Origin: Croceicoccus estronivorus
GTDB lineage: Bacteria > Pseudomonadota > Alphaproteobacteria > Sphingomonadales > Sphingomonadaceae
Assembly: GCF_001625325.1 (NCBI RefSeq)
Contig: NZ_JRQQ01000005.1
Location: forward strand, 62,001 to 126,000
Direction: 5' to 3'
Length of the DNA: 64,000 nucleotides
Part shown: positions 20,714-22,029 of the stretch, piece by piece
Layout of the letters: every line of letters starts with the position of its first letter
Numbering within the stretch: the first letter of the stretch is position 1
Made by a program: the position numbers and the translations under genes
The notes under the pieces: model-generated
What the model saw: the letters and a program-made list of their open reading frames with translations, nothing else
What the model was told of the DNA's origin: nothing
Databases searched by the model: none

Positions 20714-21697
20714 TCAGCGGCGCTCGAACGGCTTGATCCCCGGTCCAAGGGTATTCTGGCCAATCTGCAATTTGTCACCCGACCAGTCCGCGACGAAAGT
20801 CGTCGTCCATTTGACCGACGGCGCCAGCCGCGCATTGTTGCCTGCAATCACCAGTCCATCGGCGCTATGCTGATGCTTTTCGGCCGCAATCGCGATCAGG
20901 GCCGAATGGTTTTCATGGTCCGGCCCCTGAACAAACCAGTTGTTGGTGATCTGGCCCGTCGAACCGTTCGGCAGGTCGATCATGTAATTGCTCCACCGCC
21001 CCTTCGAATCATCAAAACTGTTCGAGGCGATCTGCACCTGCGCCGATCTGCTTTTGAGATAATGTCCGCCCGCTCCGCGTTCGAAACGGCTGCGGGTAAC
21101 GCGCAGGAACCCGTAATCACCGATATAGAGGGAATGGGCGCACCCTGCGGAATAGTAGCAGGTCCCCAGGTTCGTGAATGTCGATTTGTCGATCACGATC
21201 CGACCGGAGGGATCCGACGCAGTCAGAATTCCTTCCTGACTATCCCTGAACCAGCTCTGCGCGACAGTCAGATTGCCTTTTTCGAGGCGGATTCCGGCAC
21301 CATTGCCATCCGATGATGTCAGGTTCTGGAACACCAGACCCGACACCGAAGCATTATAGCCGCGCAGGACCAGCGCCGCCTTGTCTTCACAGGCCATGCC
21401 TTCAAGGATCGCCGTGCCCGGCTTGGTCGCAAGATAGGACACATCGCCCCCGCTCTGGACAGCACAGTCCTTATAACGTCCCGGCGCAATGGCAATCGTG
21501 CCCTTGCCGCTGCCGATCGCTGAAACGGCATCCTGCAAGCGCACGTAAGTCTTCCCGGTTTCGACCACCGTGTAGGGCCCGTCCTGCGCCTGAGCGAGCA
21601 GGGCACCTGCCGGAATGGCGAGGCCAGCCGCGATTGCGAGCAAGGCGACGAGTGGGCGCGAAGGACGCGATAGTGGGCTGAGGACATGGTTTTTCAT
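20714..21697 (-). CDS. Exported right-handed parallel beta-helix protein
   Basis: Secreted or periplasmic protein of 327 residues with a signal peptide (about 1-37, ending LLAQA). The rest carries short repeating turns typical of pectate-lyase-like beta-helices, for example GAGIRLEKGNLTVAQSWF, IVIDKSTFTNLG, LRVTRSRFERG and VQIASNSFDD. No catalytic residues of a named polysaccharide lyase can be assigned. Two cysteine-bearing loops (around 90 and 180-190) may form disulfides. It may bind or cut a surface polysaccharide, but the sequence does not prove it. An FNR-type box and a CtrA-like motif lie in its upstream region. Confidence 0.8.
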   Translation of the reverse strand: MKNHVLSPLSRPSRPLVALLAIAAGLAIPAGALLAQAQDGPYTVVETGKTYVRLQDAVSAIGSGKGTIAIAPGRYKDCAVQSGGDVSYLATKPGTAILEGMACEDKAALVLRGYNASVSGLVFQNLTSSDGNGAGIRLEKGNLTVAQSWFRDSQEGILTASDPSGRIVIDKSTFTNLGTCYYSAGCAHSLYIGDYGFLRVTRSRFERGAGGHYLKSRSAQVQIASNSFDDSKGRWSNYMIDLPNGSTGQITNNWFVQGPDHENHSALIAIAAEKHQHSADGLVIAGNNARLAPSVKWTTTFVADWSGDKLQIGQNTLGPGIKPFERR

Positions 21698-21792: not shown

Positions 21793-21806
21793 TTGATCTG
21801 CGTCAA
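21793..21806 (+). promoter_or_regulatory. FNR/FixK-type anaerobox
   Basis: TTGATCTGCGTCAA matches the FNR/FixK consensus TTGAT-N4-ATCAA at 9 of 10 fixed positions. Its centre is 21799.5. A class II (-41.5) geometry predicts transcription from about 21841, with TACCTA (21829-21834) in the -10 position. The gene starting at 21859 has a strong ribosome binding site just after that point. The box could also act on the divergent beta-helix gene. Confidence 0.65.
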
Positions 21807-21858
21807 TTTTTCACCCCTCGCCACGCCATACCTAGGCAGAATCGGAGGAGAGGGGCCC

Positions 21859-22029
21859 ATGATACCCACGCGATACGATTACTACCGTGCGCGAGCACGC
21901 GAACACAGGACCCTTGCGGCCCGCGCCACGGACGCTGACCAGCGTTCGATGCATGACCGCCTGGTCGGTGCCTACACCGAACTCGCGCGCAAATATGCTC
22001 TGCGGCAGACGGTCAGCCTGCGCACCTGA
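21859..22029 (+). CDS. Small conserved-type hypothetical protein, 56 residues, behind an FNR-type box
   Basis: Small basic, probably helical cytosolic protein beginning MIPTRYDYYRARAREHR. It has many Arg and Ala and no signal or membrane segment. The ATG at 21859 follows GGAGGAGAGGGG (21846-21857), a very strong ribosome binding site. The frame is open to 21793, but the longer form would translate the FNR-type box and lacks a binding site. I do not recognise a named family. The box (21793-21806) predicts induction under low oxygen. It is convergent with metH-C, whose end lies 12 bases away. Confidence 0.7.
   Translation: MIPTRYDYYRARAREHRTLAARATDADQRSMHDRLVGAYTELARKYALRQTVSLRT

Follow-up and report, generated by a model that had tools for sequence, protein, structure and literature searches.

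In all likelihood, a 56-codon gene of Croceicoccus estronivorus is driven from a class II site of FnrN/FnrL, a regulator sensitive to oxygen. As judged from sequence, the small gene would join a known regulon as a new, well-supported target, ordinary in its mechanism; we infer binding, activation and oxygen dependence from the established biology of Fnr proteins. When oxygen falls, [4Fe-4S]-FnrN would dimerise and bind the box at about -41.5, where the bound protein would contact RNA polymerase and replace a good -35 element. The small gene, monocistronic by its arrangement, would then be switched on to give a 56-residue helical hairpin.

The box and the gene lie in a stretch of 64,000 nucleotides that we analysed as a whole (the window; Table 1). 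The box, TTGATCTGCGTCAA, has a single mismatch to TTGATN4ATCAA, as had been claimed from the letters of the window, and its centre is 21799.5. Arithmetic from this centre agrees with the transcription start that the original prediction had derived from a -41.5 geometry, and the ribosome-binding site and ATG that it had named are both in place, at the head of an open reading frame whose product is MIPTRYDYYRARAREHRTLAARATDADQRSMHDRLVGAYTELARKYALRQTVSLRT. On the other side of the box, the product of the divergent gene matches PF13229 with E 2.4e-7 (31.0 bits vs a cut-off of 25.9).

Table 1. Features around the box in the window.
Feature	Coordinates	Strand	Basis
Fnr/FixK box TTGATCTGCGTCAA, predicted FnrN-binding site centred at -41.5	21793..21806	+	Sequence, orthologue conservation, PMC7713065 consensus
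-10-like hexamer TACCTA, 22 nt after the box, weak alone	21829..21834	+	Position recurs in pooled orthologues
Predicted transcription start	21841	+	Arithmetic from the -41.5 geometry
Ribosome-binding site GGAGGAG	21844..21850	+	Sequence; orthologues purine-rich before the start
56-aa small basic protein, predicted two-helix hairpin, ATG at 21859	21859..22029	+	Open reading frame, AlphaFold2, dN/dS
Divergent gene with right-handed beta-helix match	20714..21697	-	PF13229; control by the box not convincing

Orthologues of the small gene and their upstream regions

We searched a profile of seven members (A1) against 397 genomes of the same family. Among at most 16 best first-look candidates per genome, an orthologue group stood out in 12 of the 397 at E <= 6e-24, with the next match at 6e-8. 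All four genomes of the same genus carry the gene, and the carriers include Sphingobium sp. SYK-6 (G144) and Sphingosinicella microcystinivorans DSM 19791. Eight loci came from a named collection: six lie in genomes already counted and two are new (L030 and L031). Strong matches at the level of the order (246 genomes) occurred only in the window's genome and SYK-6, and at the level of the class (385 genomes, at most 17 best candidates in each) only the window's genome matched at E 1e-6. Thus, the orthologue group looks narrow. With dN/dS of 0.06–0.34 over nine orthologue pairs, the small gene is clearly under purifying selection.

The original prediction had staked itself on finding the box at the orthologues, and an exact TTGAYN4RTCAA was indeed present 46–67 nt before the start in 14/14 (the 12 genomes plus the two new loci), some of which are close relatives, so that 14 orthologues are not 14 independent events. 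When seven upstream regions were aligned, the eight core bases of the half-sites were all invariant, vs two other non-coding columns. An exact box arose in only 1 of 20,000 mononucleotide shuffles of the orthologues' 150-nt upstream regions. Moreover, a composite pattern (the box, 30–60 nt, then an M-I-P start with ATG) was found in 7/397 genomes, every one an orthologue; five Sphingosinicella-type orthologues begin with TTG and have their box 63–67 nt away, which makes them invisible to this pattern.

Among the neighbours listed for comparison, the carriers fall into three gene neighbourhoods, with the box present in each: (i) in the window and in three other genomes (G189, G061 and G133), the beta-helix gene is divergent and metH lies on the opposite side; G093 has the same region with the beta-helix gene 3.4 kb off and, by eye, a different divergent frame; (ii) SYK-6, G390, L030 and L031 have crtI upstream in common, within a run of crtY, crtI, a TIGR00730 (LOG-like) gene and crtB in SYK-6, whose CrtB scores under the NCBIfam cut-off and above the Pfam cut-off for PF00494; and (iii) in the Sphingosinicella group (five genomes), the small gene follows a TonB-receptor gene and a short reverse frame, and a choice-of-anchor I gene lies downstream. 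In SYK-6 and L031, crtB ends inside the box, its stop codon falling on the first half-site (L100:6731-6744 and L031:3939-3952), and this overlap may help to conserve TTGA there. Because the box is present in such differing neighbourhoods, it goes with the small gene: the two evolve as a single unit. That the box stays despite the change of neighbours also means that the protein very probably takes part in the low-oxygen response.

Promoter geometry and the regulator

If the box spans -48 to -35, a hexamer 22 nt after it falls at -12 to -7, the place expected for the -10 element of a class II promoter. Using a -10 matrix, we scored 25 offsets after the box in 11 non-redundant promoters of the 14 (the near-duplicates G390, G276 and G307 were excluded). 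In the pooled promoters, offset 22 was the best of the 25, and 0/3000 shuffles scored as high at any offset. The first context (five sequences) shows offset 22 by itself, with 2/3000 shuffles as high at any offset. The crtB context (three sequences; 1090/3000 shuffles at any offset, 53/3000 at offset 22) and the Sphingosinicella context (three sequences; 627/3000 and 27/3000) do not single out offset 22 when taken alone. In the window itself, TACCTA at offset 22 is a weak hexamer of -0.9 bits; a higher score, 3.9 bits, belongs to CAGAAT at 21837-21842, whose offset of 30 does not suit class II. Upstream of ccoN in the same genome, we saw by eye no good hexamer at offset 22.

Which protein would read the box? 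PF13545 gave three matches in the window's genome, one FnrN/FnrL-like and two that read as GntR- and Lrp-type, and PF00027 gave two, the FnrN/FnrL-like protein and a 649-residue frame. The FnrN/FnrL-like protein contains CETCLVRNRAIC, a later Cys and ETVSR; four cysteines and an ExxSR recognition helix are therefore present, and the four cysteines of FnrL are the ligands of its cluster. We call it FnrN/FnrL-like because its best NCBIfam hit among the eight matches listed, FnrL (NF045989), scored 238.5 bits, below the cut-off of 300. At E 1e-20, 11/12 orthologue genomes encode a protein of this kind, with CX2CX7C, one more Cys and ETVSR. An FnrN-like match at E 1e-20 was also found in 18 of the 26 genomes without the small gene among the 38 chosen genomes. 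The regulator is thus widespread, and its presence does not mark the small gene. The one orthologue genome in which we found no FnrN-like protein, G093, is a 94% complete draft whose sole PF13545 match reads as GntR-type.

As a positive control, an exact box was recovered between ompW and ccoN of the window's genome (G000:C11:236619-236632; L040, L139). Frames read as ccoO, ccoQ and ccoG follow this ccoN, with no ccoP among the frames listed. Two more exact boxes of the same genome have neighbours that were named by eye: one (G000:C23:281304; L045) is in front of a TetR-like gene, with an amidohydrolase-like gene running divergently from it, and the other (G000:C3:38490; L002) is in front of a long repetitive surface-protein-like frame.

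Among the closest published systems is the FnrN/FixK regulon of Sphingopyxis granuli TFA, for which the available part of PMC7713065 derives the consensus TTGAc/t-N4-g/aTCAA from FnrN- and FixK-dependent genes and places most box centres near -41.5 (class II). The likeness extends from the consensus and the class II position to the divergent ccoN/ompW pair and several monocistronic targets (PMC7713065). The same part of that paper reports 96 further boxes from a genome-wide search, predictions that the authors did not count as targets, and its Table 1 holds no target recognisable as the small protein; SGRAN_3843 is listed there as an 'Uncharacterised protein'. For Sphingomonadales, the portion of PMC4999443 at hand reports FnrN alone, with targets such as cco, hemA and hemN, and its text mentions redox targets only. 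The motif in its introduction, TTGANCNNGATCAANG, differs at three positions from the window's box plus the two bases that follow.

Alternative readings of the box

Could the box be a chance near-match to a short palindrome? In the window, sequences with at most two mismatches to TTGATN4ATCAA number 20 vs a shuffle mean of 16.2, about what chance predicts and no enrichment, so the box alone proves nothing. Exact TTGAYN4RTCAA occurs at 12 places in the genome vs 3 for the reversed pattern, and several of the 12 fall within long frames, so part of them are probably due to chance. The comparison of orthologues, however, makes such an origin very unlikely for this box, and we give it practically no probability: the box is kept in every orthologue although spacer and flanks change, and the reversed form of the composite pattern was found in 0/397 genomes.

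Granted that the box is real, it might control the divergent beta-helix gene as well as the small gene, as the original prediction had suggested. The divergent arrangement recurs in four genomes (the window's, G189, G061 and G133), and the S. granuli authors suggest, in the part of PMC7713065 that was available, that a single box may serve ompW and ccoN. With beta-helix starts chosen by eye, however, the distance from the box varies over 64–118 nt without fixed phase (95 nt in the window, 118 in G061, 78 in G133 and 64 in G189), which argues against a phased second promoter, and in G093 and the other contexts the neighbours are different and the box is still there. Control of the beta-helix gene by the box is thus unsupported, and we consider shared use unlikely. 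Alternatively, a different Crp/Fnr protein of the DNR/NarR or FixK type could read a real box, and the signal would then be nitric oxide or nitrate instead of oxygen. Regulators of these types recognise nearly the same site, judging from the available parts of PMC2908626, in which FNR, FixK and DNR sites are treated as shared, and PMC4999443. In line with such a reader, G093 has the box and no FnrN that we could find, and the one distant relative with a box (L086) lies in a genome (G494) that gave no FnrN-like match at E 1e-20 and encodes an ETLSR Crp/Fnr-type protein beside a frame read as narG. In the window's genome, by contrast, the FnrN/FnrL-like protein is the sole Crp/Fnr transcription factor found, the other PF13545 matches reading as GntR- and Lrp-type, and we regard a different reader as improbable there. 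FnrN/FnrL thus remains the preferred candidate for the protein that would act at the box.

The protein and its possible role

AlphaFold2 predicted a hairpin with helices at 5-22 and 26-55 (mean pLDDT 89.6). Fifteen positions are invariant in the 14 orthologues: M1, I2, P3, Y8, R12, E15, H16, L19, A20, R29, M31, H32, A38, Y39 and A43. The small protein contains no cysteine and, by eye, no transmembrane segment. The original description of a small helical protein of no recognised family holds, given the predicted hairpin, the purifying selection and searches of Pfam and NCBIfam that gave nothing over cut-off for the small protein (PF04404 only, E 0.086, 13.3 bits vs 25). No entry of the PDB matched in Foldseek at E 0.001 or better (best E 1.6). 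A plasmid collection gave no match at E 0.01, and a plasmid origin was set aside on this ground. In a literature search for a named relative, no paper could be tied to the small protein, and the part of PMC6472365 that was available contains nothing on the small gene.

Two likenesses were considered and rejected. The iron site of encapsulated ferritins is built from Glu and ExxH ligands; the corresponding Foldseek entries were insignificant, and the conserved residues of the small protein are R29-x2-H32, not E-x2-H. Profile matches to designed proteins that bind haem (haem maquettes) had E 0.02-0.06 over short stretches and were taken as generic helix matches.

By profile, the protein belongs to a wider, unnamed group of sphingomonad hairpins, in which R12, A20 and H32 are present in 39/39 aligned members and Y8 and Y39 in nearly all. 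None of these 39 members matched a Pfam or NCBIfam family at E 0.01, and one matched PHROGs (E 0.0014). The distant set consists only of those profile matches that have loci; L016 and L020 were excluded as frame artefacts, and L011 is the same as L060, so that its 46 loci are 45 genes. Alignment A4 took 25 of these 46. The 25 aligned members share H32 with the orthologues and differ in having no M-I-P start and in mostly missing H16. Similarly, an exact box precedes only one of the 46 distant loci (L086) and is missing before the other 45. EcfG-type general-stress promoters were rejected as their common signal: 2/46 loci match, against a single match on the other strand and none for the reversed pattern. 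The group is multi-copy in some sphingomonads (five matches at E 0.001 in genome G391 of g77). At the exceptional L086 (G494:C2:91242-91355; L140), a perfect TTGATCATGATCAA precedes the gene by 51 nt and, by eye, TAAATT follows this box after 21 nt; a Crp/Fnr-type gene adjoins L086 tail to tail.

What might the protein do? With no match to an enzyme or named family and no transmembrane segment by eye, we judge the likeliest reading to be a cytosolic protein that works as an adaptor or regulator by contacting other proteins, which we hold only tentatively. FixT, a small protein from the low-oxygen network of alphaproteobacteria, is likewise linked to a low-oxygen regulator and offers a possible model for feedback. 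It is an Fe-S-binding receiver domain according to the title of PMC7078487, whereas the small protein lacks cysteine and is predicted to fold as a helical hairpin. A far more speculative idea is that the small protein founds a family of hairpin adaptors that has no name yet, and that the branch of this family under FnrN control adjusts the respiratory chain at low oxygen or acts back on FnrN or some other sensor. One possible means would be the binding of metal or haem by the conserved H16 and H32.

The small gene has its box in all three neighbourhoods, which suggests that the protein's role depends centrally on expression at low oxygen. As a probable FnrN target, the gene would add a small protein to the low-oxygen regulon of bacteria that are usually considered aerobes.
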